Below the pieces are notes generated by a model. It was not told the DNA's origin. It saw nothing but the letters and a program-made list of their open reading frames with translations, and made no database searches. From Deltaproteobacteria bacterium (GTDB taxonomy: Bacteria; Desulfobacterota; Binatia; Binatales; Binataceae), in contig JAJYYI010000116.1 in NCBI GenBank assembly GCA_021801125.1, forward strand, positions 1 through 42,699: a stretch of DNA of 42,699 nt, read 5' to 3'. The position numbers were made by a program, and so were the translations under genes. Shown here piece after piece: positions 8,052 to 31,431 of this stretch (positions within the stretch are counted from its first letter, which is position 1; each line of letters starts with the position of its first letter).

Positions 8052-9047
8052 CTACGGGTTTTGCGGTTCCGGCTCGAAGCCTGCGCGTTCGATAAGCGTG
8101 AGAGTCTGCTCGTAACCGAGCCCCGGCGTTGTCAGATATCCGTTAACGAAAATTGAATTGACCGCGTTGAAAAGCTCGCCTTGGCACGGACCGAGGTTGA
8201 GTTCGCGTCCGCCGGCGGCGCGAATCTCGGCGGTCGGATTCAGCAGCCGAAACACGCAGGCTGCCTTGAGGCACTTCTGCGGGCTCAATGCCCTCATGTT
8301 ACCGAGCGGCGTGCCGCCGATCGGATGCAGGAAATTAATCGGCACGGAATCGACCTGCAGTCGGCGCGTAGCATACGCAAGGTCAAGGACATCGTCGTCC
8401 TCCTCGCCCATTCCGAGGATTCCTCCGCAGCATGTGGACAGGCCGGCTTTGCGCACGCTCTGTACCGTTTGCACTCGATCTTCGTAAGTGTGAGTGCTGC
8501 AAATCTTGGGATAGAAGCGCCGACTGGTGTTCAAGTTATGGTTGATCCAACCGGCTCCGGCTTCCTTTAAGGTTCGAGCCTGCGCCTCGTTCATGAGTCC
8601 CAGGGAAAGACAGATTTCCAGGGCTGGGAAGCGCTCTCGGATGCGCTCGCACGCCTCGCCCAGATGCTCCATCGTCGCTTCGTTTGGCCCGCGCATGCTG
8701 CACACGACGCAATAACGGCGAGCGCCGTTGCTGACCGCAACCTCGGCGCCTTCAACCAGCGCGCTCACGCTCTTGAGTTTGTAAACCGGGATATCGGCAC
8801 GGGAAATCTTCGATTGCGAGCAATAGGCGCAGTCTTCCGGGCAGATTCCGCTCTGCGCGTTGTTCAGCATGCAAATTTTCACGCGCCGCTGGAAGTTTCT
8901 CTCACGCACCCTCAGCGTGGCGTTCAACAATTCCGAGAGGCGCTCGTCCGGATAATTCAACAACGCGCGCGCGGCCTCTCGCCCAAGTTCTTTGCCCGCG
9001 ATGACGTCTTCGACTATTCGATCTAGATCCAAGTTTGCGCCTCCCAT
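8052..9047 (-). CDS. bioB: Biotin synthase
   Basis: This radical-SAM enzyme inserts sulfur into dethiobiotin. The [4Fe-4S] motif CPEDCAYC gives C69, C73 and C76. The [2Fe-2S] ligands correspond to C113 (RYCVV), C146 (EICLSLG), C206 (STCCGGILGMGE) and R260 region (EIRAAGGRE), all matching the E. coli pattern. Length (331) is normal for the family. The ATG at 9047 has no good ribosome binding site, whereas a TTG at 9032 lies 7 bases after GGGAGG, so translation may begin at 9032, giving a protein five residues shorter. No other bio gene is in the window. The gene is divergent from the regulator of a biotin-dependent carboxylase cluster, which would need biotin. Confidence 0.96.
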   Translation of the reverse strand: MGGANLDLDRIVEDVIAGKELGREAARALLNYPDERLSELLNATLRVRERNFQRRVKICMLNNAQSGICPEDCAYCSQSKISRADIPVYKLKSVSALVEGAEVAVSNGARRYCVVCSMRGPNEATMEHLGEACERIRERFPALEICLSLGLMNEAQARTLKEAGAGWINHNLNTSRRFYPKICSTHTYEDRVQTVQSVRKAGLSTCCGGILGMGEEDDDVLDLAYATRRLQVDSVPINFLHPIGGTPLGNMRALSPQKCLKAACVFRLLNPTAEIRAAGGRELNLGPCQGELFNAVNSIFVNGYLTTPGLGYEQTLTLIERAGFEPEPQNP

Positions 9048-9255: not shown

Positions 9256-10062
9256 ATGGCGGGCGATCACGCCGCAGGTAATTCAATCAGTGCGGTTGCC
9301 AAAGCGACCGGCGTAAACGCTTCTACGCTGCGCTTGTGGGAACGACACGGCCTTCTGTCGCCTGCCAAGACCGCCCGAGGCCATCGCCGTTACGGTCTCG
9401 ACGACCTTCTGCGAATCCGGGATATCCGCCGTCTACGAGAAGTTCGCGGGTTTAATCTCGCCGCGATTCAAACTTTGATGGCTTCTCAGAACGGAGCTGC
9501 GGCCCATCAGGACCCGGGCGCGGGGTCGTTCGGCCAGCGTCTGCTCACCCTGCGTCGCAGCAAAGGCCTTACTTTGCGCGAGGTGCGCAAAAGGACCGGC
9601 CTTGCACCCTCCTTCGTCAGCTCGATCGAGCGCGGTGTGAGCGAGCCCACCGTGGCCACGTTGAAGAAGCTCACCGAATGCTACGGCACAACCGTGGCGG
9701 CGTTGACCGCGCGCCGCGTGACCCGCGACAACAAGATAATTCGCGCCGGCGAGTATCGGTTGCTGCCGCCGCTGGGTCCTGGGATTCAGGTCGAGCAACT
9801 CGCCGAGGGTGCGCTCATGATGGACTGCCAGCGGTGGACGCTCGATGCGGGTTCTGCAAGCCAGGGGCCGTACGCGCATGAGGGCGAAGAGTTCATTCAC
9901 GTGCTCGCTGGTCAATTTCTCATCACTCTGGATGGCCGCGGACGCTACGAGCTAAACGCCGGTGATAGCATGTACTTCAAAAGCACCATCATGCATTCGT
10001 GGAACAATCCCGGGCCGGAACAAACAACGTTATTGTGGATAAACACGCCGCCTACTTTCTAA
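9256..10062 (+). CDS. Three-domain regulator: MerR HTH + XRE HTH + cupin
   Basis: With the ATG at 9256 (GGAGAAGCG just upstream) the protein has 268 residues. Residues 8-75 form a MerR winged helix (TLRLWERHGLL, RRYGLDDLLRIRDIRRLRE). Residues 94-150 form an XRE-type HTH (RLLTLRRSKGLTLREV, then SFVSSIERGVSEPTVATLKKL). Residues 195-265 form a cupin_2 barrel (HEGEEFIHVLAGQF, GDSMYFKSTIMHSW). XRE-cupin regulators such as PuuR control amine and omega-amino-acid catabolism; the added MerR head is unusual and suggests two DNA contacts or sites. The aminotransferase gene follows 88 bases later. The cupin likely binds a pathway metabolite, making this the local sensor for the 10-20 kb block (inference). 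Confidence 0.9.
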   Translation: MAGDHAAGNSISAVAKATGVNASTLRLWERHGLLSPAKTARGHRRYGLDDLLRIRDIRRLREVRGFNLAAIQTLMASQNGAAAHQDPGAGSFGQRLLTLRRSKGLTLREVRKRTGLAPSFVSSIERGVSEPTVATLKKLTECYGTTVAALTARRVTRDNKIIRAGEYRLLPPLGPGIQVEQLAEGALMMDCQRWTLDAGSASQGPYAHEGEEFIHVLAGQFLITLDGRGRYELNAGDSMYFKSTIMHSWNNPGPEQTTLLWINTPPTF

Positions 10063-10150
10063 CAGAGCATCGCTGACGAACAGAATTTTTGGCTATGACT
10101 TCGAGTTGTCTACTTTCAGGTGCAAAGGCTAAACGAACGAGGGGGCTCTC

Positions 10151-11473
10151 TTGATCGACACGACATCAACCGCTGATAGCGTTACGGCTCGACTCACTGC
10201 CAGACGGCTTGCCTCGGTTCCGCGCGGGGTCTCTCAAGGTCTGCCGCTGGTTTTGAGCGAAGCACGTGGCGCCGTGCTGCGCGACGTCGATGGCCGTCGC
10301 GTGCTCGACTTTGCCGGCGGAATCGGCGTACTGAATGTCGGCCACTGCCATCCGCAAGTGGTTGCGGCAATCAAAACTCAAGTCGAACGGCTCACCCACT
10401 GCTGCTTTCAGGTAGCCACCTACGAGCCGTATGTGGCGCTGGCGGAACGGCTTAACCAGATCGTGCCCGGTCCCTGGCCGAAGAAAACATTGCTTCTCAA
10501 CAGCGGCGCGGAAGCGGTTGAAAACGCTGTCAAAATTGCGCGTGCAGCAACGGGCCGTCCGGCCGTGCTGGCATTCGAGCACGCATTTCACGGCCGTACG
10601 CTTTTCGGTCTGACGCTGACCGGCAAGGTGCATCCCTACAAGATTGGCTTTGGTCCTTTTGCACCGGAGGTTTATCGGCTGCCTTTTCCCTATTGTTTTC
10701 GCTGCAGCGAGAGTCGGCCACAAGGCGGATGCTGCCAGGCAAGCGACGAGTATTTCTCGTCGCGGATAGCAACGTTGGTCGCGCCCGAGGCTCTGGCGGC
10801 GGTGATTATCGAGCCGGTGGCGGGTGAAGGCGGTTTTATTCCGGTGCCACGCGATTTTCTCCACGCGCTTTCCCGGTGGTGTCGCCGTCACGGGGTGTTG
10901 CTGATCGCGGATGAGATTCAGACCGGATTCGGCCGGACGGGCAAGATGTTCGCGATGGAGCATTACGACGTGGCCGCCGACCTTACGACGACCGCCAAGT
11001 CGCTCGGCGGAGGGTTGCCGATTAGCGCGGTAACCGGTCGCCAGGAAGTGATGGACGCGCCCATCCCGGGCGGCTTGGGCGGCACGTTTGCGGGCAACCC
11101 GGTTGCCTGCGCCGCAGCGCTCGCGGTTCTCGACGTCTTCGAAAGGGAACGGCTGGTCGAGCGGGCGGAGTTGCTTGGCGACAAGGTGCGCGAGCGGCTG
11201 TCGCTGTGGCAGGCGACATATCCTTGGATTGGCGAGGCGCGGGGCCTAGGTGCGATGCAGGCGTTGGAACTCGTCGAAGACCGCGCTTCGAAGCGGCCCG
11301 ATTCGCGACGAACTGCTTTGGTGCAAAAACTGGCATTGGAACGAGGATTGCTGCTTCTTACCGCTGGAACTTGGGGCAACGTCCTGCGCACGCTGATGCC
11401 GCTGGTGATCTCGGACGCAGAGCTTGCTGAAGGACTGGACATTCTCGGCTCGGCTTTGGAGGCCGCGAATTGA
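10151..11473 (+). CDS. Class III omega-aminotransferase (GABA/5-aminovalerate type)
   Basis: This PLP enzyme of the GabT family has NSGAEAVENAVKIAR for phosphate binding, FEHAFHGRT, IADEIQTGFGRTG (D254 holds the pyridine nitrogen), the Schiff-base lysine K283 in TTAKSLGGG, and GGTFAGNP near the end. A Cys-rich PYCFRCSE to GGCC segment (180-195) is typical of bacterial GABA transaminases. It probably converts a terminal amino group to a semialdehyde with 2-oxoglutarate as acceptor. The start appears to be TTG, preceded by GAGGGGG at a spacing of 5; no Met lies near the N terminus. No semialdehyde dehydrogenase is present in the window. Its position between a PuuR-like regulator and an ABC/Pxp cluster suggests it acts on the product of lactam or amide opening (inference). 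Confidence 0.9.
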   Translation: MIDTTSTADSVTARLTARRLASVPRGVSQGLPLVLSEARGAVLRDVDGRRVLDFAGGIGVLNVGHCHPQVVAAIKTQVERLTHCCFQVATYEPYVALAERLNQIVPGPWPKKTLLLNSGAEAVENAVKIARAATGRPAVLAFEHAFHGRTLFGLTLTGKVHPYKIGFGPFAPEVYRLPFPYCFRCSESRPQGGCCQASDEYFSSRIATLVAPEALAAVIIEPVAGEGGFIPVPRDFLHALSRWCRRHGVLLIADEIQTGFGRTGKMFAMEHYDVAADLTTTAKSLGGGLPISAVTGRQEVMDAPIPGGLGGTFAGNPVACAAALAVLDVFERERLVERAELLGDKVRERLSLWQATYPWIGEARGLGAMQALELVEDRASKRPDSRRTALVQKLALERGLLLLTAGTWGNVLRTLMPLVISDAELAEGLDILGSALEAAN

Positions 11474-11595
11474 TTTGCTCGTTTGTTTCGAGGTGGACCA
11501 ACTGCTTCAACCGTACCCGTCATTCGTCTGTTTGGGGAATTACTTCGGCGCGCGGCAAGAGCAAGCCCCGGCGTCGGACCGTTTGAGGAAACGGC

Positions 11596-12750
11596 ATGAA
11601 AAGACTCATTAACCGCAGGGTTTGGTTAAACCGGCTTCTTAGCGCAGGTAGCGGCGTCGTCCTGGTTCTCGCCCTTTCGGTGATCGCGTGCGCCGCCGCC
11701 GGATGGAAGGTGCAAAGCTATTACGGAACCTATGACGTCAAGACAAAGAAGCCGGGCCAGCCGGCGCAAAGCTTGGTCGGTCCCAAGGACGAGGTGTGGA
11801 AGACGCCGACCGCCGCAAAGAAATATGTAATCGGTGTTTCCTTTCCCCATCTCAAGGACCCTTACTGGCTGGCAGTAGACTACGGCGTAATTGACGAGGC
11901 GAGAAAGCTCGGTGTCGGAGTTCAGCTCGTCGCGGCTGGAGGGTACACCGAGATCAACCAACAGATTAGCCAGGTCGAGAACTTGGCCAACCAGAAAGTG
12001 AATGGCATCGTGCTCGCCGCGATCAGCTACTCCGGTGAGGATCAACTCGTCGCTCAGACCGTTGACCGTGGAATTCCCGTGGTCGAGGTAATCAACGACA
12101 TCCAGGCCGCCAAGATCAGCGCCAAGGCCCTGGTGTCATTCTTCGACATGGGCTATAAGGCCGGCGTCTATCTGGCAGATCAGGCGAACAAGAGCAGTAG
12201 GCCCCTCAATGTCGTTTTTCTACCCGGCCCGGCTGGTTCGGGGTGGGCGCCGGACACTCTGGACGGCTTCAAGGCAGCCACTACCAAGCTTGCACCGGGC
12301 AAGGTCAATATCCTGGACGTTAAGTGGGGAGACACGGGCAAAAATGTGCAGCTCCAGTTGATCGAGAACGCACTCGCCACTTACTCCCAACTCGACTATC
12401 TGGTGGGCAACGCGGTCGCCGCCGACGCCGCGCCGGGCGCGCTTGAAACCGCCGGCCGCGTTGGCAAGGTCAAGGTCGTCTCCACCTATATAACGCCGCC
12501 CGTCTACCAAGATATCGTCAAAGCCAAGGTGGCCGCCGCGCCTACTGACTTTACCGCTCTGCAGGGAAAAATGGCCATCGATATGACGGTACAGATTTTA
12601 AATGGGAAAGCCGCCGGCAAGGACTTTCCATTCCGCAGCGGTCCCGTTATCCAGGTCGTCACACCAAGCAACTACCGGACCTTTTCGTACGACGCGATGT
12701 TCGGACCGCGCAACTGGCGACCGGTGTTTAGCGTCAAACCCAAAGAGTGA
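11596..12750 (+). CDS. TorT-like periplasmic substrate-binding protein
   Basis: This is a type I periplasmic binding fold. GVSFPHLKDPYWLAVDYG and EINQQISQVENLANQKVNGIVLAAISY match the signature regions of TorT, the TMAO sensor partner of TorS. Residues 1-35 form a signal peptide; VIAC ending at C32 fits a lipobox, so the mature protein may be membrane-anchored, although signal peptidase I cleavage is also possible. There is no TorS or TorR; instead an ABC ATPase and permease of the ribose type follow, so it likely delivers substrate to a transporter. The ligand is unknown: the TorT resemblance suggests a small polar nitrogenous compound. At 384 residues it is slightly longer than TorT. Confidence 0.83.
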   Translation: MKRLINRRVWLNRLLSAGSGVVLVLALSVIACAAAGWKVQSYYGTYDVKTKKPGQPAQSLVGPKDEVWKTPTAAKKYVIGVSFPHLKDPYWLAVDYGVIDEARKLGVGVQLVAAGGYTEINQQISQVENLANQKVNGIVLAAISYSGEDQLVAQTVDRGIPVVEVINDIQAAKISAKALVSFFDMGYKAGVYLADQANKSSRPLNVVFLPGPAGSGWAPDTLDGFKAATTKLAPGKVNILDVKWGDTGKNVQLQLIENALATYSQLDYLVGNAVAADAAPGALETAGRVGKVKVVSTYITPPVYQDIVKAKVAAAPTDFTALQGKMAIDMTVQILNGKAAGKDFPFRSGPVIQVVTPSNYRTFSYDAMFGPRNWRPVFSVKPKE

Positions 12751-12836
12751 AGTGCCGGCGGTGCGCGTGCTCTGATGCTGCGAAAAGAGAAGGTGCCCGC
12801 CGCGTCCTCGGGCCCGCGTCGAACAGGGAACGACCG

Positions 12837-14363
12837 ATGACTCCGAAGCCGCTTCTGCGTGCTGAAGAAATAAGCAAGCGCTTCCCCGGAGTGCAGGCGC
12901 TGGACCGCGTCGAGTTCGAGCTTCGCGCAGGCGAGGTCCACGCCGTGTTAGGCGAGAACGGAGCCGGCAAGTCGACCCTGGTAAAAGTGCTTGCCGGCTC
13001 CTTACAACCAGACAGCGGTCGTTTAACGCTCGGGGGAAGGGATGCGACGCTAAAAAGCGCGCATCACGCCGCTGAACTGGGAATACGTGCCGTCTTCCAA
13101 GAGCTATCCCTGGTGGGCCAGTTAACCGTGGCCGAGAACTTGTTTCTTGGCCGCGAGATGACGCGCGGCGGGCTCCTGCGCAAGCGCCGGATGCAGGAGT
13201 TGGCGAGGGCGGCGCTGGACCGGATAGGCGCCAAGGTCTCGCCGAACGCGCTCGTGGGCGAGCTTTCGCCCGCGCAGCGCCATATGGTCGAGATTGCCAA
13301 AGCCACCGCGCATGACGTGCGCGTGTTGATCCTAGACGAACCCACGGCGGCGCTCGCCTCCGAGGAGGCTCGCCACCTGTTCGAGCTTTGCGCCGACCTC
13401 AAGCGCCGGGGCGTCGGTATCATTTATATAACCCACCGCTTCGATGAGCTCTATCGCTTCGCCGATCGGATCACGATTCTTAGGGACGGCCGTTACGTAG
13501 GGACGTTCGACGCCGATCAAGTGGACCGTAGCCGGCTCATAACGCATATGACCGGCCGCGAATTTCGCGAAATTTTTCCCGCACTGCAGACTCCGCGAAA
13601 CAAGGTTCGCCTTCAGGCTAAGGACATCTCGGTGACTGGTCGTCTTGCCAAGACCAGTTTCGAGGTTCGGGAAGGTGAGATTTTCGGTATTGCCGGTCTG
13701 GACGGAAGCGGCAAGACGGACCTTGCGAGAGCACTGTTTGGAGTGCAATCCGGGGCTCAAGGCACTGTGACGCTAGACGGAGTTGAGATCAAACTGCAGC
13801 GCGTGAGCCCGCGAGCCATGATTAGAAGCGGTCTAATGTATCTACCTGGCGACCGCCGCAAAGAAGGTCTGGTGCTATGTAGATCGGTTGTGGAAAACAT
13901 GACCATCTCCTCGCTCAAGCATCTGTCTCGCGCCGGGTTTATTGCCAAAGCCGAAGAGCGTCGGCGCGTCCAGATTATGGTCGACCGGTTGCGCATCAAA
14001 ACCCCTAGCATTTTTGGACGCACTGGAGTTCTGTCTGGCGGAACTCAACAAAAAGTGATGGTGAGCAAGGCGCTGTTGGGAGCTATCAACGTTTTTATCT
14101 TCGACGAACTCACGCAAGGTATCGATGTCGCGGCCAAAGTCGACCTGTACCATTTCGTGCGCGATCTGGCCGCGTCAGGCGCAGCGGTAATTATGGTTTT
14201 GTCGGATATGGCCGAAATCCTCAACCTCTGTCATCGTGTTTTGGTCCTCTGCCGAGGCCAAACCACCGCGTTGTTAAGCGGCGGGGAGATATCCGAGGCT
14301 GCCGTGCTGCATCACTACTTCGGCGAAAAAATACCCAATACGGAGAATGCAATCGGTGCCTGA
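12837..14363 (+). CDS. ABC transporter ATP-binding protein (RbsA/MglA type, two NBDs)
   Basis: The protein has two fused nucleotide-binding domains (about 1-240 and 255-505). The first has Walker A GENGAGKST (39-47), signature LSPAQRHMVEIAKA and Walker B VLILDEPTAAL. The second has GLDGSGKTD, LSGGTQQKVMVSKAL and IFDELTQGID. At 508 residues the length is normal for the sugar/nucleoside subclass. The ATG at 12837 after AGGGAA is preferred; a frame open from 12747 would add 30 residues without homology. The first signature (LSPAQ) is slightly degenerate, as is usual in this subclass, where one site is weak. It overlaps the permease gene by 17 bases and belongs with the TorT-like protein upstream. 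Confidence 0.93.
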   Translation: MTPKPLLRAEEISKRFPGVQALDRVEFELRAGEVHAVLGENGAGKSTLVKVLAGSLQPDSGRLTLGGRDATLKSAHHAAELGIRAVFQELSLVGQLTVAENLFLGREMTRGGLLRKRRMQELARAALDRIGAKVSPNALVGELSPAQRHMVEIAKATAHDVRVLILDEPTAALASEEARHLFELCADLKRRGVGIIYITHRFDELYRFADRITILRDGRYVGTFDADQVDRSRLITHMTGREFREIFPALQTPRNKVRLQAKDISVTGRLAKTSFEVREGEIFGIAGLDGSGKTDLARALFGVQSGAQGTVTLDGVEIKLQRVSPRAMIRSGLMYLPGDRRKEGLVLCRSVVENMTISSLKHLSRAGFIAKAEERRRVQIMVDRLRIKTPSIFGRTGVLSGGTQQKVMVSKALLGAINVFIFDELTQGIDVAAKVDLYHFVRDLAASGAAVIMVLSDMAEILNLCHRVLVLCRGQTTALLSGGEISEAAVLHHYFGEKIPNTENAIGA

Positions 14364-15363
14364 ACAGACCGCGCCGCCGCTTGGCGCCGCCGAAATGCTT
14401 GCTGATTCGGGCGCGAGCGTACTGCATCGTATTCTGGCGCGCGTCGGGATTCTCCCGCTCCTGATGGTTGTGCTGATCGCCATCTTTGGGACGATCGAGC
14501 CGCGCTTTTTGGCTTGGCAGAACATCCGCACGGTCGGAATTCAGTCGGTATATCTGATCATTGTCTCGGTGGCTCAAACGATCGTGTTGCTGACCGGCGG
14601 CTTCGATTTATCGGTCGGCTCCTCTATAGCACTGACCAGCATCATCACCGGTTTGGTTTTGATCGCGGCGAATCCCGATTTCTTCGGTATCGCTCAGGCC
14701 GTCGTCGCCGGCGTAGTCACGGGAACGGTGATCGGCGCGGCGAACGGAGGAGTAGTGTCGGTTTTTGGGGTTTCGCCGTTCATCGCGACGCTGGCGATGA
14801 TGTCGATCGCATCGGGCGCCGCGCTGGTTATCTCGGGTGGGGTGCCGATATTCAACTTTCCTTCTGAATTCAGCGATACGCTGGCCACGGGAAGCGTGCT
14901 TGGCGTGCCGGCGCCTTGGATCGTCGTGGGCGTCGTGATTCTGCTGGTCTACTTGACGCTGTCATGGACGCGCTTCGGGCGTTATCTTTACGCCGTCGGC
15001 GGCAACGCTGACGCCGCGCATCTGTCGGGCGTTCCGGTCAAGCGTTCGTTGTTTTTCGCGTACCTTCTTGCCGGCGCATTGACCGGCGTTGCCGGCGTGA
15101 TGCTGACGGCGCGAGTCGGCTCGGGAGAACCGAATCTCGGAGCCACGGTGCCGCTTGAATCGATAGCTGCCGCGGTCTTGGGCGGGGTCTCGCTCGGTGG
15201 CGGCGAGGGCACGCTTCTCGGCGCTGTCTTGGGCGCCTTTTTCCTGGTTTTCCTGCGAAATGGGATGGACCTAATCCGCATCTCATCTTATGTACAGATG
15301 ATTGTGACAGGAGTTTTGTTGATTATCGCAATTGTTGCCGATCGATATATTCATGGTCGATAA
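14347..15363 (+). CDS. ABC transporter permease (RbsC type)
   Basis: This inner-membrane permease of the BPD_transp_2 family has about 9-10 hydrophobic segments. The EAA-like region is typical of ribose/xylose permeases: GFDLSVGSSIALTSIITG near 90, GRYLYAVGGNADAAHLSGV near 215, and LESIAAAVLGGVSLGGGEG near 280. It starts inside the ATPase gene (17-base overlap), so the two are translationally coupled. Only one permease gene is present, so the channel is presumably a homodimer. With the TorT-like binding protein and the ATPase it forms a complete importer placed directly upstream of pxpBCA. Confidence 0.93.
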   Translation: MQSVPEQTAPPLGAAEMLADSGASVLHRILARVGILPLLMVVLIAIFGTIEPRFLAWQNIRTVGIQSVYLIIVSVAQTIVLLTGGFDLSVGSSIALTSIITGLVLIAANPDFFGIAQAVVAGVVTGTVIGAANGGVVSVFGVSPFIATLAMMSIASGAALVISGGVPIFNFPSEFSDTLATGSVLGVPAPWIVVGVVILLVYLTLSWTRFGRYLYAVGGNADAAHLSGVPVKRSLFFAYLLAGALTGVAGVMLTARVGSGEPNLGATVPLESIAAAVLGGVSLGGGEGTLLGAVLGAFFLVFLRNGMDLIRISSYVQMIVTGVLLIIAIVADRYIHGR

Positions 15364-15393
15364 CGGAACCTGCCGAGCAATTGAGGTGATTTC

Positions 15394-16380
15394 ATGGTAG
15401 CGCCGAACGCGACGAACCGAGCGATCATAGATTGTCTCCCCGCAAGCGGAGAACGCCCGGAGGTGGTTTACCGATACGCCGGCGACAGATTCCTTCTGTT
15501 GGAGTATGGCGATATGGTGCTCGACCTGCGCATGAACTTCCGCATCTTCGGCCTCAACGACGCTATTGCGAAGGCCGAAATTAAAGGACTGGTCGAGACC
15601 GTTCCTGCATTGCGTAGCATGCTTATTCACTACGACAGCCTCGCGCTTTCGCCTAAGCGGTTGGTTGATACCCTCAAGAAGCTCGAGGAGAACCTGCCTT
15701 CGGTCGAAAACCTGACCATCCCGAGCCGGCGCGTGCAATTACCCCTGGCCTTCGAGGACCGGCACACCAAGGGGGATATCGAACGCTACGTCAAGTACAC
15801 TCGCCAGGACGCGCCCAATATCATCAACGGCCACAACATCGAATATATTGCTCAGTACAATGGCCTGAAGGACAAGGCCGAGGTAATCGAGTACATTTGC
15901 GCCACGCAATGGTGGAACGCGTGCATCGGGTTCTGGCCCGGCCTGCCGTTCATGTTCCCGCTCGATCCGCGCTACGCGATCGTCACTCCAAAATACAACC
16001 CCACGCGGCCTTGGACCGTCGAAGGCGCGGTCGGGATCGGCGGACCTTGCGTCGCGATTTATCCGGTTGCCTCCCCAGGCGGATACCAACTTTTCGGCAG
16101 AACCATCCCGATATTCGATCTGCAGCAGCGAAACCCCGTCTTTAAGGAAAATCCGATACTGCTGAAGGCGGCGGACCGCGTGGAGTGGGTTCCTGTCAGC
16201 GACGAAGAATTGGAAGACATTCGCGCGCGCGTGCATTCCGGGGTCTATCAGTACAAGGTCGTGGCGTATGAGGCCCTCAACGTTAAATCGTATCTGCAGT
16301 TTCTCGAATCGGTCAAAGACGAGGTTGCGACCTTTCAGAAAAGGCAGGCGGAGGCTACCAAACACGTGGCGGTACCGTGA
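15394..16380 (+). CDS. pxpB: PxpB-like carboxyltransferase subunit (AHS1/CT_C_D domain)
   Basis: The protein matches allophanate-hydrolase-subunit-1/KipI proteins and the CT domain of urea carboxylase. It has RYAGDRFLLLEYGD at the start, ALRSMLIHYDSLALSP, then WWNACIGFWPGLPFMFPLDP, and GIGGPCVAIYPVASPGGYQLFGRT, the conserved substrate-pocket segment. At 328 residues it is longer than E. coli PxpB; the extra C terminus (about 250-328) resembles the tail of urea carboxylase. The start is supported by GAGGTG five bases upstream. It heads the pxpB-pxpC-pxpA-BCCP-BC run. It likely pairs with PxpC to form the carboxyltransferase active site rather than acting as a plain 5-oxoprolinase, because biotin genes follow (inference). 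Confidence 0.88.
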   Translation: MVAPNATNRAIIDCLPASGERPEVVYRYAGDRFLLLEYGDMVLDLRMNFRIFGLNDAIAKAEIKGLVETVPALRSMLIHYDSLALSPKRLVDTLKKLEENLPSVENLTIPSRRVQLPLAFEDRHTKGDIERYVKYTRQDAPNIINGHNIEYIAQYNGLKDKAEVIEYICATQWWNACIGFWPGLPFMFPLDPRYAIVTPKYNPTRPWTVEGAVGIGGPCVAIYPVASPGGYQLFGRTIPIFDLQQRNPVFKENPILLKAADRVEWVPVSDEELEDIRARVHSGVYQYKVVAYEALNVKSYLQFLESVKDEVATFQKRQAEATKHVAVP

Positions 16381-16478
16381 TTTGCGCAATCCCGCGTGAT
16401 CAACTGCGAGCTGGGTTGGACCATGCGCTCGAATTGTTCGCTTGCAGACGGATTAAACGGTAACACGGAGAAAAGGGC

Positions 16479-17462
16479 ATGCTCGAGGTAATCGAAGGCG
16501 GCATCCAGACAACAGTGCAGGAGTATCCGGGGCGTGTGGGCTATCTCGACCTTGGCACCTATCCCGCGGGCCCGATGGACCATTTTGCTTTCCGCATCGC
16601 GAACCTCTTGGTCGGGAACAAGCCGGGCACGAGCGCACTCGAAGTGACACTGGGAGGTCTCAAGGTTCGTTTCGGCGATCGGCGCATCGTGTCGATCACC
16701 GGCGCGGCGATGCAGCCGACGGTGAACGGATCGCCGGTGCCGACGTGGCAGAGCTTCGAGGTCAGGCCCGGTGATCTGCTAGCCCTCGGAATGGTCAAGA
16801 TCGCAGGCGGCTTCCGGTCGTATATCGCGATCAACGGCGGCTTCGACGTGCCGGAATATATGGGAAGTCGGGCGACCTTTACGGTTGGCGGATTCGGCGG
16901 TTTTCAGGGTCGCGGCCTAAAAAAGGGAGATAAAGTTGCGCTTAACTTTGCCCCGTACGCGGACAAGCTCGCTGGCAGGCGCCTGCGCAACCAGCTTATT
17001 CCCACCTACGCCTCGGAATGGGAGATCGAAGTGATGCGCGGTCCCCAGGCCGATCCGGATTACCTAACCGCCGAAGATATGGAGACCTTTTTCAGCAAGA
17101 CCTGGAAGGTCGATCGCAATTCGAACCGCATGGGGATTCGCCTGGAGCCCCATAAATGGCATTGGGCGCGTACGACTGGCGGAATCGCCGGCGGTCATCC
17201 GTCGAACATCCTCGACAACGGCTACGCCGTTTGGACCGTCAACGTATGCGGCGATCAGCCGATTATACTGGTCGCGGACGGCCCCAGTCTCGGCGGGTTC
17301 ATATGCAACGCCACGCTCGTTCACGCCTCGACCTGGAAGGCTGGCCAACTGGTGCCTGGTCGTGATCAGGTGCGCTTCAAGGAAGTAACTATCGAAGAAG
17401 CCATCCGAATGGCGCGTGATTTAGATGCCAAGGTTTCGGAGGCAAGCGTCGAAAGGGAGTAA
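16479..17462 (+). CDS. pxpC: PxpC-like carboxyltransferase subunit (AHS2/CT_A_B domain)
   Basis: This is an allophanate-hydrolase-subunit-2/KipA family member. It has TTVQEYPGRVGYLDLGTYPAGPMD at the start (the family's QD.GR.G....G....GPMD pattern), NLLVGN, ALEVTLGGL, AINGGFDVPEYMGSRATF, SNRMGIRLE and LPGRDQ-like VPGRDQVRF near the end. Length (327) is standard. In urea carboxylase this domain and AHS1 together make up the carboxyltransferase half. The ATG follows GGAGAAAAGGG. It lies 98 bases after pxpB and 5 bases before pxpA. Confidence 0.92.
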   Translation: MLEVIEGGIQTTVQEYPGRVGYLDLGTYPAGPMDHFAFRIANLLVGNKPGTSALEVTLGGLKVRFGDRRIVSITGAAMQPTVNGSPVPTWQSFEVRPGDLLALGMVKIAGGFRSYIAINGGFDVPEYMGSRATFTVGGFGGFQGRGLKKGDKVALNFAPYADKLAGRRLRNQLIPTYASEWEIEVMRGPQADPDYLTAEDMETFFSKTWKVDRNSNRMGIRLEPHKWHWARTTGGIAGGHPSNILDNGYAVWTVNVCGDQPIILVADGPSLGGFICNATLVHASTWKAGQLVPGRDQVRFKEVTIEEAIRMARDLDAKVSEASVERE

Positions 17463-17467
17463 TAGCC

Positions 17468-18229
17468 ATGGCAACGCGGATGGATATCAACGCTGATATG
17501 GGAGAAAGCTTCGGCCGATGGACGCTAGGCAACGACGCGGAGCTCATGCCTTATCTGACCTCGGCCAACATTGCGTGCGGCTATCACGGCGGCGACCCTC
17601 ACGTAATGCGCGCCACGGTGAAGCTCGCCAAGCAACACGGTGTTGGCGTCGGGGCGCACGTCTCGCTGCCGGATCTTATGGGCTTCGGACGCAGGCGAAT
17701 GGCGATCCTGCCGCAGGAGCTAAAGGACTACGTGGTCTATCAGGTCGGGGCGCTGATGGGTTTCGCCAGGGCCGAGGGCGCCCAAATTCAGCATGTCAAG
17801 CCGCACGGCGCGATGTATGTAATGTGCTCGGACAACGACGACTACGCCGAAGCGGTAGTTAGCGCGATAAAGGAACTCGGCGGCGAGTTAATCCTGCTGC
17901 TTACCGGCCAACGCGTCGCGCGCGCGGCCCAAAGCATGGGTGTGCCGTTCGTAATGGAAGGATACGTCGACCTCGACTACGATAAGCGTGGCGAGCTTAT
18001 ACTGGAGCGCGCCAAAAAGCCGCGCGACCCGGAACACGTCGCCGGGCGAGCTGTGATGCTTGCGTGCGAGGGTAAAGTTCCGGTTCGCGATGGCGGTTCG
18101 TTGCCGCTGGCCGCGCGCAGCGTGTGCATTCACGGCGACGCTCCGAACGCTGCGGAGATAGCCAAAGCAACCAGGGAACATCTGATGCGGGCTGGGGTTG
18201 AGCCGGTAAGCCTGAGAGATCTGCTGTAA
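17468..18229 (+). CDS. pxpA: PxpA-like LamB/YcsF-family subunit
   Basis: The N-terminal DINADMGESFG and then SANIACGYHGGDP, HVKPHGAMY and the AA-SVCIHGD region are family hallmarks; the Asp, His and Glu residues line the metal-like pocket of the TIM-barrel fold. At 253 residues it has the normal length. In E. coli PxpA with PxpB and PxpC hydrolyses 5-oxoproline with ATP. Here it is followed within 21 bases by a biotin carrier and then biotin carboxylase, so the energy input is probably biotin carboxylation. PxpA would then open or hydrolyse the carboxylated intermediate (inference). Confidence 0.93.
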   Translation: MATRMDINADMGESFGRWTLGNDAELMPYLTSANIACGYHGGDPHVMRATVKLAKQHGVGVGAHVSLPDLMGFGRRRMAILPQELKDYVVYQVGALMGFARAEGAQIQHVKPHGAMYVMCSDNDDYAEAVVSAIKELGGELILLLTGQRVARAAQSMGVPFVMEGYVDLDYDKRGELILERAKKPRDPEHVAGRAVMLACEGKVPVRDGGSLPLAARSVCIHGDAPNAAEIAKATREHLMRAGVEPVSLRDLL

Positions 18230-18249
18230 CTTCACGCGCGAGGTAACCG

Positions 18250-18477
18250 ATGGCGAATAGCATTGAAATCGTGGCCCCGGTGGCGGGGGTTGTAGGGAGC
18301 TTGCCGGTGGCGGTGGGCGCCAGCGTGTCGGCCGGCGACCCGTTAGTTGTGCTGCAAGCGATGAAGACCGAATTCCCCGTGGAGGCGGAACAGGCGGGCA
18401 CGATCAAGGAGATTCTGGTTAGCGAGGGACAAGAAGTTGAAATGGGCGCCGTGATGGTTCGCCTCTTGCCGGCGTAA
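18250..18477 (+). CDS. Small stand-alone biotin carboxyl carrier protein
   Basis: The 75-residue protein is just the biotinyl domain: IVAPVAGVVGSLPVAVG, the biotin-accepting lysine K39 in LQAMKTEFPVEAE, and a symmetrical second half ending in GAVMVRLLPA. The usual AMKM reads AMKT here. It lacks the Pro/Ala linker and N-terminal domain of fatty-acid AccB, which argues for a dedicated carrier serving the neighbouring carboxylase. The start follows GAGGTAACCG. The biotin carboxylase gene begins 14 bases downstream. Confidence 0.92.
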   Translation: MANSIEIVAPVAGVVGSLPVAVGASVSAGDPLVVLQAMKTEFPVEAEQAGTIKEILVSEGQEVEMGAVMVRLLPA

Positions 18478-18491
18478 CACTTCTAAGACTG

Positions 18492-19868
18492 ATGAAGCGT
18501 CTACGCAAAGTGCTGGTGGCCAACCGTGGCGAGATCGCGGTGCGCGTGATGCGGGGTTGCCGCGAGCTGGGTATCTCCACGGTGGCGGTTTTCTCGGAAG
18601 CTGACCGCGAAGCCGCGCATGTGCGATTTGCCGATGAAACGCGAGAGATCGGACCCGCCAAACCCGCTGAGAGCTATCTTAACTTGGACCGCATTCTGGG
18701 CGCTGCGGCCGACTGCGGTGCCGACGCTATCCATCCGGGTTACGGTTTTTTTGCTGAAGATGGCGCCGCCGTCCAGCGGATTGAAGCGGCGGGGTTCACT
18801 TTTATTGGTCCGGGCAGCGAGCAAATCAGGCTTATGGGCGACAAACTCGAAGCCCGCGAGGTAGCCAAACGTTTGGGTGTGCCTCTTTTGCCCGCGGCCG
18901 GGCCCTTGGAAAGCGCCGAGGAAGTCGCGCAGGCGGCTGAGCGGCTGGGATTTCCGCTGATCGTAAAGCCCGTGGCCGGCGGTGGAGGTATCGGAACCGC
19001 GGTCGTCGCCGACCAAGCCGCGCTGGCTCGCGCTTTCACATTTGCCTCTCGATTGGGACAACAAGCCTTTGGCCGGGCCACTGTCTACCTGGAGCGCTAC
19101 ATGGACGATGCGCGCCACGTAGAGATACAGATCGCGGCCGACCATCACGGGCAGGTCGTTGCCCTGGGCGAACGCGAATGTTCTCTGCAAAGGCGCTACC
19201 AGAAACTGGTTGAAGAGAGCCCGTCGAGTGTTGTTGACGAGGAGCTTCGCCAGGAAATGGGCGCGGCTGCGGTACGAATCGCCAAGGCGATAGGCTATCG
19301 CAACGTCGGAACGGTGGAGTTTCTGCTCGACGCCGGAAAGCGGGAATTTTACTTCCTCGAAATGAACACGCGCATCCAGGTGGAACATCCCGTGACCGAA
19401 ATGATCACGGGAATCGACCTGGTGCGCGAGCAACTGCGCATCGCGGACGACCTCCCGCTGAGCTTCAGCGAGCGCAACGTTGAACGCCGCGGCCACGCTA
19501 TCGAATGCCGCATATGTTCGGAAGACCCGCTTAAGAACTTCATGCCTTCGACCGGCCAGATCTCCGCCCTGGCTTTCCCGGTCGGTCCAGGCGTTCGCGT
19601 CGATAGCGGTGTCGACGCGGGCTCAGCGGTGACGATGCACTACGATCCGTTGCTCTGCAAGGTGATCGTCTGGGACTCGGATCGAGCCCATGCGACGGCC
19701 AGGATGCGGCGCGCGCTGAGCGAATTGCGTGTCGAGGGAGTCCGCACCACTCGCGACTTCCTGCTTTGGATCATGGGCTCCTCGGAGTGGAACGAGGGCC
19801 GCATCCACACGCGTTTGTTAGAGCGAGACTTGGTGCCACGCTTCAAGTCTTTCATCGCAAAGGGCTAG
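18492..19868 (+). CDS. Biotin carboxylase subunit (AccC-like)
   Basis: An ATP-grasp enzyme that carboxylates biotin using ATP and bicarbonate. It opens with VLVANRGEIAVRVMRGCRELG, then has HPGYGFFAED, the glycine-rich lid KPVAGGGGIGT, GERECSLQRRYQKLVEESPS and MNTRIQVEHPVTE. The C-terminal biotin carboxylase domain (HAIECRICSEDP and GVRVDSGVDAG) is complete; 458 residues is normal for AccC. Its genetic partners are a private BCCP and PxpA, B and C, with no acetyl- or propionyl-CoA carboxyltransferase present, so the carboxyl acceptor is probably the Pxp substrate. It is the last gene of the plus-strand block and is convergent with etfD. Confidence 0.94.
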   Translation: MKRLRKVLVANRGEIAVRVMRGCRELGISTVAVFSEADREAAHVRFADETREIGPAKPAESYLNLDRILGAAADCGADAIHPGYGFFAEDGAAVQRIEAAGFTFIGPGSEQIRLMGDKLEAREVAKRLGVPLLPAAGPLESAEEVAQAAERLGFPLIVKPVAGGGGIGTAVVADQAALARAFTFASRLGQQAFGRATVYLERYMDDARHVEIQIAADHHGQVVALGERECSLQRRYQKLVEESPSSVVDEELRQEMGAAAVRIAKAIGYRNVGTVEFLLDAGKREFYFLEMNTRIQVEHPVTEMITGIDLVREQLRIADDLPLSFSERNVERRGHAIECRICSEDPLKNFMPSTGQISALAFPVGPGVRVDSGVDAGSAVTMHYDPLLCKVIVWDSDRAHATARMRRALSELRVEGVRTTRDFLLWIMGSSEWNEGRIHTRLLERDLVPRFKSFIAKG

Positions 19869-19931: not shown

Positions 19932-19970
19932 AAAAGCCCCGAGGCCGTCGCGGTCTCGCTCCCCCGGGCT
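19932..19970 (-). terminator. Candidate Rho-independent terminator after etfD
   Basis: On the minus strand, directly at the etfD stop, AGCCCGGGGG pairs with CCTCGGGGCT (5 + 4 pairs around one mismatch; loop 16-19 bases) and is followed by TTTT. The G-rich stem and T-run fit an intrinsic terminator, though the loop is long. Confidence 0.42.
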
Positions 19971-22063
19971 CATTTCGTCAGCGAGGCGCCGCACGACTGG
20001 CAAATCAGCTCTGCAAGGTCGCGCACGGCCATGTTGTCTTCAAGCGAGCGTGACTTAACCGCGTCCTCCATCATCGTCATGCAGAACGGACATCCGACGG
20101 CGAGCGTTTCCGGGTTGGCCTGGCTCAACTGTTCGAAGCGTTTCTGATTGATTCGCGTTCCTTCGTGCTCTTCTTTCCAGAACCCTCCACCGCCGGCGCC
20201 GCAACAGAATGTACGGTGGCGGCATTGGTCCACCTCGTTGAGCGTGACGCCGGGGATGGAGCCGAGCGCGCGACGGGCGCCCTGCCATTTTCCGTTATGC
20301 CGCGCCATATAGCATGGGTCGTGGTAGGTGATGCGGGAGCGCATCTCAGTGCTCGGCCGAAGCCGACCGGAATTTATGAGTTCGTCGAGAAATTCCGCTT
20401 CGTGGACAACTTCAAAGTTTCCGCCAAAATCGGGATATTCGTTCTTCAGATTGTGAAAGCAGTGCGGACACGTCGTAACGATGCGGCGCGGCTTGTACCG
20501 GTTCAGCGTCTCGACGTTCTGCGCGGCTACGGTCGCATATAGATACTCGTTGCCTAGTCGACGGGCTGGGTCGCCAGTACACGTTTCCTCGGGACCGAGG
20601 ATGGCGAAGCGCACCCCGGCTTGTTTCAGAACCGCCGCGAAGGCCCGCGAGACTTTTTGATTCCGCTCGTCGTAAGACCCTGCGCATCCTACCCAATAGA
20701 GGACGTCGATTTCTTCGAGCTTTTCCAGGTCGGCCATGATCGGGATATCGAGACCCTTCGCCCAATCGGCCCGCTTGGCCTGGTCAAGTCCCCACGGGTT
20801 GCCTTGAACCTCGATTCCGCGAAACGCGGAAGTTGCCTCCTGCGGAAATTTGCTTTCCATCAGCACGAGATGGCGGCGCATATCGACAATTCGCTGGATA
20901 TGCTCGATGCCCACCGGGCATCCCTCTTCGCACCATCCGCAGGTCGTGCATCCCCAAATAACCGGCTCGGTTGCGACCTGCGTTATCATGTCCTCGCTCT
21001 CGCTTGCGTCCGTCGAGCCGTTGGAGGACGCCGCGGCGAGGAGCGCCGGCGCTTGGCGCAGCAGATGTTCGCGTTGCGAGATAATGAGGTGTTTCGGGTT
21101 GAGCGCCTTGCCGGTGGCGACAGTGGGACAATTGATCGTGCATCGCCCGCATTCGAGGCAAGAAGCCATGTCCAGAAGCTGTTTCCAGGTGTATTGCTCG
21201 ACGCGGGAAATGCCGAAGGTTTCGGCATTTTCGAAGTCCTTGATCGGAGCAAGGCGGCCCCGCGGCTGAAGGTTTCTAAAGTAAAGGTTTACGGGAGCGA
21301 GGAAGATGTGCCGCAGCTTCGAGAATGCAAACGAAAACAGCAACAGATAGACCAAGAGCATGTGGACCAACCAGAGGTAGCGGTGAAAGGTTGGTCCGGC
21401 ACCGAGGGCTTTCTCGGCTCGCGCGAGTTGCCGCCCCAGGTAGGCGAATTCCGTAAAAGGCGGAGGATTCGCGTTGATGCGAGCGCCTTCGAGCATCAGG
21501 CCAGTCAACGCCACGAGGGCGAGCATCAAGGCGGCGAACCAATAGCCGAGCGCATTCTCAAGGTTTTCGTTAAGTTTTTCCTTGGCTGGTTGCGTCAACA
21601 CCTGCGGGCGGATGAAAAAGCGCCTTGCGGCAGCGGCAAACGTGCCGACGATCAAGAATATGAAAAACGTGTCCATCGCGACCTTGAAGAGGAGGTAGAA
21701 GTCGCCAAAGTAAAAGTAGAGGTCGAAGCCGAACAGACGGAAAAAGGCACGCACGTCGCTGTTGATCGCGACGATCGTCGTTCCGATCAAGAGGCCGATA
21801 AAGCCGACGTACATGACGTAATGCATCCAGCCCCAGGATTCGCGGATGACGTTGCCCTGACCTACCGCGTCGCGCAGCGCTAAAAAAAACCTGAACAGCG
21901 GGCGGTCGAAGCGATTTTCACTTGCTCCGAGCCGTATAAGCTTGTACCAGCGAATGGCGCTATAGACGTAGAACGCCGCAAGCGCGAGCAGCAAACCATA
22001 AAGTAATACTTGAAAACTTGCTGGCACGTTCCAAAGTATCGGCCTCGTAACCTCTTGGTTCAT
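19970..22063 (-). CDS. etfD: ETF:quinone oxidoreductase of the HdrD/NarI type (EtfD-like)
   Basis: The N-terminal third has about five membrane helices of the NarI-like cytochrome b type (residues about 10-270). Two 4Fe-4S motifs follow, SCLECGRCTINCP and GCTTCGWCEEGCP. Two CCG domains complete the protein: YWVGCAGSYDE with TTCPHCFHNL, and YHDPCYMARH with FCCGAGGGGFW and GCPFCMTMMEDA. This layout is that of membrane-bound EtfD/EMO proteins, which pass electrons from ETF, and so from acyl-CoA dehydrogenases, to menaquinone. The ATG at 22063, five bases after AAGGGGG, is preferred to 22081. The acyl-CoA dehydrogenase gene upstream on the same strand is a natural electron donor by way of ETF; no etfAB is in the window. 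Confidence 0.9.
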   Translation of the reverse strand: MNQEVTRPILWNVPASFQVLLYGLLLALAAFYVYSAIRWYKLIRLGASENRFDRPLFRFFLALRDAVGQGNVIRESWGWMHYVMYVGFIGLLIGTTIVAINSDVRAFFRLFGFDLYFYFGDFYLLFKVAMDTFFIFLIVGTFAAAARRFFIRPQVLTQPAKEKLNENLENALGYWFAALMLALVALTGLMLEGARINANPPPFTEFAYLGRQLARAEKALGAGPTFHRYLWLVHMLLVYLLLFSFAFSKLRHIFLAPVNLYFRNLQPRGRLAPIKDFENAETFGISRVEQYTWKQLLDMASCLECGRCTINCPTVATGKALNPKHLIISQREHLLRQAPALLAAASSNGSTDASESEDMITQVATEPVIWGCTTCGWCEEGCPVGIEHIQRIVDMRRHLVLMESKFPQEATSAFRGIEVQGNPWGLDQAKRADWAKGLDIPIMADLEKLEEIDVLYWVGCAGSYDERNQKVSRAFAAVLKQAGVRFAILGPEETCTGDPARRLGNEYLYATVAAQNVETLNRYKPRRIVTTCPHCFHNLKNEYPDFGGNFEVVHEAEFLDELINSGRLRPSTEMRSRITYHDPCYMARHNGKWQGARRALGSIPGVTLNEVDQCRHRTFCCGAGGGGFWKEEHEGTRINQKRFEQLSQANPETLAVGCPFCMTMMEDAVKSRSLEDNMAVRDLAELICQSCGASLTK

Positions 22064-22301
22064 AGATGCCCCCTTTCCCATTGGGCATTATGCTGCGCAA
22101 CGCATCCCGATCCAACAAACTCCAGGCTCGCAGGCGGGCTGTTCGAAAAAAGGGCAGGCAATCGCGGGTCTGCGGTTGCGCCAATCGTGTTTGCGGAGCA
22201 TACGCCAGCCCAGGGCTCCTGGCTGTATGGCGCATTCATGGCGCTGAGGCTGCTCCGCGCGGGTGCCCCCCATGCAGCTCTGCGCTAGGCCTTGCTTTTT
22301 G

Positions 22302-22330
22302 CGGGAGTAGCAGCTTTGCTGCCACTCCCG
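22302..22330. other. Strong intercistronic hairpin (12 bp, triloop)
   Basis: CGGGAGT-A-GCAGC, loop TTT, GCTGC-C-ACTCCCG: 12 pairs around one A/C mismatch. Neither strand has a T-run after it, so a textbook intrinsic terminator is unlikely. It may be a processing, attenuation or mRNA-stability element between the two genes. Confidence 0.6.
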
Positions 22331-22357
22331 GTATAGGTGATCTGAACTGGGGCGAAC

Positions 22358-22373
22358 TCGGCTAGAAAGCCGA
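22358..22373. other. Short perfect hairpin after the acyl-CoA dehydrogenase stop
   Basis: TCGGCT-AGAA-AGCCGA forms a 6-bp perfect stem with a 4-base loop, 34 bases downstream of the acyl-CoA dehydrogenase stop on the minus strand. With the larger hairpin nearby it may end or stabilise the first transcript. Confidence 0.4.
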
Positions 22374-22406
22374 TGGCCGCCGAAGCATTTGAAAAGCCGC
22401 GGCTGC

Positions 22407-23723
22407 TTACGCGGCCGCGTTAGCGGTGACGGTGCCCCACCCTTCCATGGACTTTTTGAATGGCACGAAACGGCAATCCATGAATGCTCGAGGGTCGAAA
22501 GACGGGTCCGCCATCACTCCCCAGACTTTCCTGCGCTGCATGCCCATAGTGCCGGCGTCGTAAAGTGGGAATATGACGGCTTCGCGCAGCAATTTTTCCA
22601 AGGGATGCTCCTTGTTGACGGCGTTGACCCCTACCACCTGCATACATTTGAACACGGTGTCGAACATCAACTCGGACGCGAAAATTTTGGACATCGCGCC
22701 GATGGCCTGCCCTTCGGAATCGTAAAGATCGAGGTAATGGGCCGCTTTCCAGGAAAGATAACGGCATGCCTCGATCCTCATCGCGATATCGGCGAGCATG
22801 TAGCCAACGGCCTGATGATGAATGATCGGCTTGTCGCCGGCGCCGGTGAAGCTTTTCGACCACTCGAGGGCGAACTCGTAGGCTGAGCGGGCAACGCCCA
22901 CCGCGGCGATCGCCGCGACCGGTCCTGACCAGGTAAAAGCCTTCGATACGATAAGGTCGCCGTTTCCCACCGCGAAGGCGTTCTCAGCCGGGACCCGGCA
23001 ATTCTCGAATTCAATCCAATTGTTCTGGTTGAGCCGATGACCGATCTTGTCGAGCGGCTTCTTAAAGGTCATGCCTGGCGTTCCGCGAGGAATCAGCAGA
23101 GCGCCGAGCCCCTCCTTTCCGCCCTTATTCTTGTCGGTTCGCACGAGAAACATGTTGACGTTGGCGCCTTTCATGTCCCATCCGGCGGAACTGCTTGGCC
23201 AATATTTTGTCCCGTTGAGAACGTATTCGCCTCGGCCCTTGTCATACTCGACCGTCACGCTCATCCCGACGGGATGACGTCCGGGGTTGTCAAAGTTCGC
23301 CGTACCCTGAGGCTCGCTGACGTTGTATCCGGCAATGTACAGGCCGGTCGGATCGCTCGTTGCCTCCCCAAGCCACTTTCGCTTCTGCTCCTCGGTCCCG
23401 TACCACGCCAGCGGCATCAACGCCAAGCCGTTTACGAGCAGGATACACGCGAAGCCGGGATCGACCGCGCACACCTCCTCGGCAACGATCTGAAGGTCAA
23501 CATTGGTGACCCCGCTCCCGCCGTACTTTTCCGGTAAAAACCCGAGAGCGAATCCAAGCTTGTATGCCTGAACATAGGCAGGTTTTACCATCTCGAAGGC
23601 CTTTTGCGGATCCGGTTCCGCGTCCGCCTTGGCCACGATGGGCTTCAGCACTTCCTGAGAAAATTCACGCGCTGTCTTTTGGAGATTCTTCTGTTCTGAA
23701 GTGAGCGTAAAATCGATTGCCAT
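22407..23723 (-). CDS. Acyl-CoA dehydrogenase (catalytic Glu region altered)
   Basis: The FAD-dependent acyl-CoA dehydrogenase fold is clear: an N-terminal helical domain (TSEQKNLQKTAREF), middle strand domain with YVLNGTKYWPSSS and VRTDKN, then KIGHRLNQNNWIEFENCRVP and C-terminal helices (YLSWKAAHYLDLYDSEGQAI, ASELMFDTVFKCMQVVG). At 438 residues it is longer than the typical 380; the extra length is mostly C-terminal. The usual catalytic segment YEGT reads YDAGT here, so the base would be Asp or displaced by one residue. The substrate is unknown. The start follows GGGGGA. The next gene on the strand, etfD, would take the electrons through ETF. Confidence 0.93.
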   Translation of the reverse strand: MAIDFTLTSEQKNLQKTAREFSQEVLKPIVAKADAEPDPQKAFEMVKPAYVQAYKLGFALGFLPEKYGGSGVTNVDLQIVAEEVCAVDPGFACILLVNGLALMPLAWYGTEEQKRKWLGEATSDPTGLYIAGYNVSEPQGTANFDNPGRHPVGMSVTVEYDKGRGEYVLNGTKYWPSSSAGWDMKGANVNMFLVRTDKNKGGKEGLGALLIPRGTPGMTFKKPLDKIGHRLNQNNWIEFENCRVPAENAFAVGNGDLIVSKAFTWSGPVAAIAAVGVARSAYEFALEWSKSFTGAGDKPIIHHQAVGYMLADIAMRIEACRYLSWKAAHYLDLYDSEGQAIGAMSKIFASELMFDTVFKCMQVVGVNAVNKEHPLEKLLREAVIFPLYDAGTMGMQRRKVWGVMADPSFDPRAFMDCRFVPFKKSMEGWGTVTANAAA

Positions 23724-31345: not shown

Positions 31346-31431
31346 GCGACGCCGACTCTTTCTCCGCTATAGCCGCGCTGTTTTAACCACTGCGCTTCGC
31401 GCGGCCTGCGCGGGCTTATCAGCGGCGGTCT

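Follow-up and report, generated by a model that had tools for sequence, protein, structure and literature searches.

What does an operon do that sets a biotin carboxylase (BC) and a biotin carboxyl carrier protein (BCCP) beside genes that the databases call an ordinary 5-oxoprolinase? The question is raised by a contig of 42,699 nucleotides from a deltaproteobacterium of the family Binataceae (GenBank assembly GCA_021801125.1, contig JAJYYI010000116.1), which was analyzed over its whole length and is called the window here. Ten genes of the + strand, from position 9256 to 19868 and spaced by short gaps or overlaps, code for a regulator (REG), a transaminase, an ABC importer with its substrate-binding protein (SBP), two carboxyltransferase (CT) subunits designated CTCD and CTAB, a homologue of PxpA, BCCP and BC (Table 1). 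The gene list, strand, order and coordinates of a first-pass annotation of this DNA were borne out by the open reading frames and the profile matches. Our analysis indicates that CTAB, CTCD, BC and BCCP very probably make up one biotin-dependent carboxylase of the urea carboxylase type, so that the core resembles a urea carboxylase divided into separate genes. The operon as a whole probably serves to take up a small cyclic amide (lactam) and to open its ring in a biotin-dependent way, 2-pyrrolidinone being the best candidate for the substrate.

The carboxyltransferase subunits and the urea carboxylase lineage

CTCD reached 290 bits with the urea carboxylase model TIGR02712 versus 77.7 with the PxpB equivalog (cutoff 145.55), and CTAB 372 bits versus 180.2 with the PxpC equivalog (cutoff 500). 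The full-length cutoff of TIGR02712 (1303.85) was not reached, the model being covered part by part by four separate reading frames. For both subunits the best solved relative was the urea carboxylase/amidolyase of Kluyveromyces lactis (3va7/5i8i; with 3va7, E=1e-47 for CTCD and E=7e-79 for CTAB), the Escherichia coli YbgJ/YbgK structures ranking far behind. In a CTCD tree of 66 rows, a branch with 100/99 support held 16 PxpB sequences on one side, the window being excluded from it, and on the other side were 35 split forms, 9 urea carboxylases and a third group (KYIRP, see below). The PxpA tree likewise set the proteins of canonical clusters on one side (aLRT 85), apart from those of the split and KYIRP loci. 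By the comparisons of the CT subunits both halves belong to the urea carboxylase lineage and the labels PxpB and PxpC, also given by the first-pass annotation, are wrong, since the proteins stay below the equivalog cutoffs, score higher against urea carboxylase and fall outside the PxpB clade. Annotations of this kind are misleading when they adjoin BC and BCCP.

The 9 fused urea carboxylases formed a single clade (100/100) nested within the split forms with a support of 93/80. A tentative scenario, to which we give rather less than even credence, is that the split system is a widespread bacterial biotin-dependent gamma-lactamase coupled to PxpA (acting on 2-pyrrolidinone by N-carboxylation) and the older stock of the fused enzymes, urea carboxylases having arisen by gene fusion and the exchange of PxpA for allophanate hydrolase. 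The root of the CTCD tree was not inferred, and the direction from split to fused is thus a reading of the tree and not a result of it.

The general-base lysine

A study of biotin carboxylases in 2011 drew attention to functionally uncharacterised split CT genes of the urea carboxylase type, and did not decide between a biotin-dependent and an older biotin-free role for them (PMC3199775). In the K. lactis urea amidolyase, Lys1605 is most likely the essential general base, and the change K1605A severely inhibits the enzyme (PMC5770610). This residue aligns with Lys200 of CTCD, the K of the motif KYNP. The aligned position was Lys in 81/81 split forms, 8/8 urea carboxylases and 6/6 KYIRP proteins, and Arg in 11/11 PxpB; the CT also retained many further positions that do not vary among urea carboxylases. 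Loci L046-L125 had been fetched by the peptide patterns GF[WF]PGLPF and KYNP[TP]R[PHT]W, the second of which contains the lysine, so that its conservation among them is partly selected. Because most split loci came from the KYNP pattern, a second sample, of phylum scope, was drawn without it, taking CT_C_D genes by the Pfam model in 247 genomes and, with their flanks, 40 loci from the low- and high-scoring ends. Here BC and BCCP accompanied all four loci of the Lys type (three split, one fused urea carboxylase) and none of the 36 others (Fisher p=1.1e-5, related genomes not being independent); some of the 40 lie on short contigs, and the absence of BC and BCCP is firm only where the flanks are complete. 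CTs with the lysine of KYNP therefore go with BC and BCCP and the Arg-bearing PxpBC do not, which separates the two alternatives of 2011.

Two Amycolatopsis loci inside the split clade (L100 and L107) carry Arg instead of Lys. BC, BCCP and PxpA are absent from L107, which has full flanks, and none of them was seen in the shorter flank of L100; it looks as though the biotin step had been lost. The third CT group, with the motif KYIRP or KYVRP (L040-L045 and L109:16598-17677), retains the lysine and adjoins PxpA. Class III aminotransferases lie near several of these loci, that of L043 resembling glutamate-1-semialdehyde aminomutase (NF000818, 410.7 bits).

Recurrence of the gene set

In all, 80 loci turned up when genome contigs were scanned; they come from Rokubacteria, Thermomicrobia/Chloroflexi, Actinobacteria, Desulfobacterota/Deltaproteobacteria, Clostridia and two metagenome-assembled genomes of Thaumarchaeota (L061 and L062, for which transfer or a binning error is possible). 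Gene content was counted in 52 loci flanked by 4.5 kb or more at either end, among them a fused urea carboxylase (L145) and L107, the orphan. CTAB was found in 52, BCCP in 51, PxpA in 50 and BC in 46; the SBP was present in 21, a transaminase for gamma-aminobutyric acid (GABA; at least 45% identity) in 16, bioY or bioB in 13 and a molybdenum hydroxylase in 10. Among 25 loci of the PxpB type, none had BC, BCCP, SBP, transaminase or bioY/bioB, and 8 had D-glutamate cyclase; the significance values for this contrast carry no correction for kinship.

Two relatives of the same family (L037 and L038) share with the window the order REG-GABT-SBP-ABC-ABC-CTCD-CTAB-PxpA-BCCP-BC, with protein identities of 63-89% and the divergent position of bioB conserved. 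L120 and L143 have SBP-ABC-ABC-PxpA-GABT-CTCD-CTAB-BCCP-BC, and a plasmid of Thermomicrobium roseum has XDH x3-SBP-ABC-ABC-BCCP-CTCD-CTAB-PxpA-bioY with accC adjacent. That the content stays the same while the order is reshuffled points to a functional unit and not to an inherited neighbourhood. The SBP was 59-66% identical among the window, Thermomicrobia and several Desulfobacterota loci, suggesting one ligand in those lineages. In a quick tree the BC sequences fell in several branches mixed with other BCs; BC phylogeny was accordingly dropped as a marker of the family, and BC may have been recruited repeatedly beside the same CT and PxpA. In Clostridia a DUF1097 membrane protein, a candidate transporter, is found near the cluster (L115, L093, L097, L103, L113, L116 and L118).

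The biotinylation residue of the BCCP is Lys39 in AMKT (MK being present in every BCCP scanned), and the BC motif EMNTRIQVEHPVTEM is intact (residue 290). Biotin dependence is well supported by the CT lineage, the lysine, the way in which BC and BCCP follow it, the biotin supply genes (bioB or bioY adjoins the cluster in separate lineages) and the presence in the genome of other BCs for the acyl-CoA carboxylases (see below). The earlier proposal that BC, BCCP and the two CT halves form one biotin-dependent carboxylase thus gains support from lineage, lysine, co-occurrence and biotin genes.

A proposed pathway and its substrate

At the level of sequence, the case for such a pathway is made by the gene set, the CT lineage, the conserved base, the BC and BCCP motifs and the co-occurrence; the order of the reactions, the substrate and the product are what we infer. 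The ABC importer would take up the lactam, and BC would carboxylate the biotin of BCCP using ATP and bicarbonate. CTAB/CTCD would pass the carboxyl group on to the nitrogen of the ring, Lys200 serving as the base, in a step modelled on urea carboxylase acting on urea. Alternatively the lactim oxygen could be carboxylated, which is one option discussed for caprolactamase (PMC8453981). Either modification would activate the otherwise very stable ring amide for PxpA, the putative hydrolase, in a step comparable to that of allophanate hydrolase on allophanate. The N-carboxy amino acid would then shed CO2 to give GABA or a close omega-amino acid, and the transaminase would convert this to a semialdehyde feeding central metabolism. 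Aldehyde oxidoreductases or dehydrogenases, which recur near the cluster in other lineages, could oxidise the semialdehyde, and bioB might supply the biotin cofactor.

PxpA together with a GABA transaminase suggests a lactam that yields an omega-amino acid, and the transaminase with the fungal precedent described below favours 2-pyrrolidinone. The transaminases of the window, L120, L088 and L078 are all over the cutoff of TIGR00700. We regard a lactam as the probable class of substrate; that it is 2-pyrrolidinone itself is plausible, at somewhat less than an even chance. A three-subunit molybdenum hydroxylase is fixed beside the cluster in Thermomicrobia (L034, L055, L056, L060, L063, L064, L068 and L104) and is also carried by L039. 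Two roles are conceivable for the thermomicrobial enzyme, oxidation of the semialdehyde or production of the lactam from a heterocycle. It was considered as a proof of N-heterocycle use and set aside, since its large subunit is nearest to a glyceraldehyde dehydrogenase model, below cutoff, and may act on the semialdehyde.

Several observations weigh against this assignment. It rests on neighbouring genes and a fungal precedent, and no more than 16 of the 52 flanked loci have the GABA transaminase. Others carry the molybdenum hydroxylase, a gene like 3-hydroxyisobutyrate dehydrogenase, an NCS1-like permease with PucR, or HyuAB, and with neighbours so varied the substrates may differ between lineages. 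Four clostridial loci (L091, L097, L113 and L115) have BCCP without an adjacent BC. The KYIRP sister group bears the lysine and PxpA, yet no BC adjoins it, so that the lysine is not strictly bound to a linked BC. Finally, no succinate-semialdehyde dehydrogenase over the TIGR01780 cutoff was found in the genome (best 431 versus 646), where several related aldehyde dehydrogenases are present.

Alternative explanations

The same machine of carboxylase and hydrolase could act on another cyclic amide, imide or ureide (a dihydropyrimidine, hydantoin, succinimide or a lactam derived from an N-heterocycle), with the transaminase working on beta-alanine, beta-aminoisobutyrate or 5-aminovalerate. We consider this unlikely, though to be taken seriously. 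In Actinobacteria the cluster has PucR regulators and a permease that is NCS1-like by eye (no Pfam hit), so that in this group the substrates may be other cyclic amides. The molybdenum hydroxylases of Thermomicrobia and L039 can be read in the same way, and so can the HyuA-like genes present in seven loci, one of which (L091) scored as CapA-like with 580 bits, below the cutoff of 1000. Besides, GABA transaminases accept other omega-amino acids too. Against this, the transaminases of several distant lineages exceed the GABA equivalog cutoff, the conservation of the SBP suggests a single ligand where it was compared, and the fungal precedent is a lactam. As an observation apart, HyuA/HyuB-like genes adjoin the split carboxylase in L091, L067, L069, L082, L121 and L125, bringing together two unrelated ATP-dependent ring-opening systems.

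A split carboxylase of urea (or of guanidine or a substituted urea), whose product would be hydrolysed by PxpA or an unlinked amidase, is improbable. It would agree with the CT lineage and with the many invariant residues shared, but no allophanate hydrolase over cutoff was found in the genome (TIGR02713 best 225.7 versus 511; at 96% completeness its absence is unproven). PxpA is the regular partner of the cluster and is missing from the fully flanked fused urea carboxylase L145, the importer is of the CUT2 type and not of the urea Urt type, and urea would yield no omega-amino acid, leaving the transaminase unexplained. On these grounds a plain split urea carboxylase was rejected.

An ordinary PxpABC 5-oxoprolinase with BC and BCCP as unrelated neighbours seems highly improbable. 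PxpA is a true LamB/YcsF protein and the databases do name the CT genes PxpB/PxpC-like, but these fall outside the PxpB clade and below the equivalog cutoffs, and BC and BCCP are linked to them in 46-51 of 52 loci versus 0 of 25 of the PxpB type. In addition, the genome has a separate, divergent PxpABC on contig C11 (L003:3265-9231) with a D-glutamate cyclase a few kb off, so that 5-oxoproline is already covered, and the glutamate formed from it needs no GABA transaminase. The lineage, the linkage and this second PxpABC led us to reject a 5-oxoprolinase with passenger genes.

That BC and BCCP serve an acyl-CoA carboxyltransferase located on another contig is scarcely credible and was rejected. 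In its favour, an acyl-CoA CT on contig C64 has no BC alongside, but it can pair with the CT-less BC and BCCP of C148; the operon has no PF01039 domain, and BC adjoins the CT genes of the cluster in 46 of 52 loci. The statement of the first-pass annotation that the operon lacks an acyl-CoA carboxyltransferase was confirmed, the four PF01039 matches of the genome being on other contigs. They make up three further acyl-CoA carboxyltransferase sets. The first, which we interpret as AccA and AccD, consists of partial matches on C35 and C59; the second is a complete CT on C59 with a BC and BCCP of its own next to it, and the third is that of C64. The three other BCs (two on C59, one on C148) can serve these acyl-CoA CTs and, as far as sequence can tell, the pairing of the operon's BC and BCCP with a carboxyltransferase elsewhere, named at first pass as what would speak against the proposal, is not what was found.

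Relation to known systems

With urea carboxylase (K. lactis urea amidolyase, 5i8i/3va7) the operon shares the CT domains and their lineage, the general-base lysine, BC and BCCP and, as a proposal, N-carboxylation as the step that primes the amide for hydrolysis. It differs in having four separate proteins in place of the fused BC-CT-BCCP, PxpA as partner instead of allophanate hydrolase, and a linked GABA transaminase and CUT2 importer. Similarly, the PxpABC 5-oxoprolinase of E. coli, Bacillus subtilis and Corynebacterium glutamicum combines in one operon a PxpA homologue with split CT_A_B/CT_C_D proteins. Here, by contrast, the CT is of another lineage (Lys, not Arg), BC and BCCP are added and a true PxpABC coexists in the genome.

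The precedent for a lactam is found in Aspergillus nidulans. We take its stand-alone 'urea carboxylase' P38095 to be LamA, and lamB presumably encodes a LamB/YcsF protein and gave half of the family name, in which case the fungus would likewise place a urea-carboxylase-like carboxylase under one control with a LamB/YcsF protein and with a transaminase for GABA. Its activator AmdR governs the lactam genes lamA/lamB and the omega-amino-acid genes gatA/gabA (PMC8016842), and P38095 occurs there with a urease and no allophanate hydrolase (PMC3073912). Lactam catabolism was shown genetically in the fungus. The fungal carboxylase is fused, and the parts of the operon are separate, bacterial and provided with a dedicated importer. 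The earlier remark that a gene set of this kind has no established function overlooked these genetically known genes. No description of the bacterial split system was found in the open-licence literature.

CapAB (caprolactam), OplBA (valerolactam) and HyuAB also activate a stable ring amide at the expense of ATP and hydrolyse it, with bicarbonate/carboxyphosphate proposed as the activator, but they belong to unrelated protein families and use no biotin. OplBA has only trace activity on gamma-butyrolactam, and according to the same paper of 2023 no mild enzymatic opening of gamma- and delta-lactams was known before that work (PMC11033972). The operon is a concrete candidate for such an enzymatic opening. 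Its parts and its chemistry are of known kinds; the combination is new.

Features of the operon and its surroundings

Table 1. Genes of the operon and the divergent bioB, with window coordinates and supporting matches
Gene or product	Position	Strand	Evidence
bioB, biotin synthase	8052..9047	-	Radical_SAM and BATS domains; divergent from operon
REG, MerR-HTH_3-cupin regulator	9256..10062	+	MerR_1, HTH_3, Cupin_2
GABA-type omega-aminotransferase, class III (GABT)	10151..11473	+	TIGR00700 568.5 bits, cutoff 506.65
Periplasmic SBP, TorT/CUT2 type	11596..12750	+	NF008185 TorT 308.9 bits, cutoff 200
CUT2-type ABC ATPase	12747..14363	+	two ABC_tran stretches; AraG/XylG/RbsA-like
CUT2-type ABC permease	14347..15363	+	BPD_transp_2; ribose-permease-like
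CTCD, carboxyltransferase domains C and D	15394..16380	+	CT_C_D PF02682 163 bits
CTAB, carboxyltransferase domains A and B	16479..17462	+	CT_A_B PF02626 289 bits
PxpA (LamB/YcsF)	17468..18229	+	PF03746 295 bits; NF003814 301.8 bits, cutoff 226
BCCP, 75 aa	18250..18477	+	open reading frame; PF00364 59.6 bits, over cutoff
BC, biotin carboxylase	18492..19868	+	all three BC domains over cutoff

The C-terminal part of the regulator was PuuR-like in the profile search (65 bits, below cutoff), and its start is likelier to be the ATG at 9256 than the GTG at 9175, where the frame opens. For the ABC ATPase, the ATG at 12837 is a more likely start than 12747. The best solved relatives of the transaminase were E. 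coli GabT and PuuE. The SBP stayed below the cutoff of TIGR02955 and had 4yhs and TorT 3o1h as its nearest solved structures; PxpA scored below the cutoffs of the PxpA equivalog models. The domain search found no Hydantoinase A/B domains in the operon proteins.

Directly past the operon, on the opposite strand (19970-23723), the window codes for an iron-sulfur protein of the heterodisulfide-reductase-like (CCG) kind, together with an acyl-CoA dehydrogenase. Farther on, SpoVR, DUF444 and PrkA follow each other at 29915-34649, a known stress-kinase trio, and two neighbouring, overlapping genes at 39925-41611 have thymidylate-kinase-like domains (74 and 79 bits).

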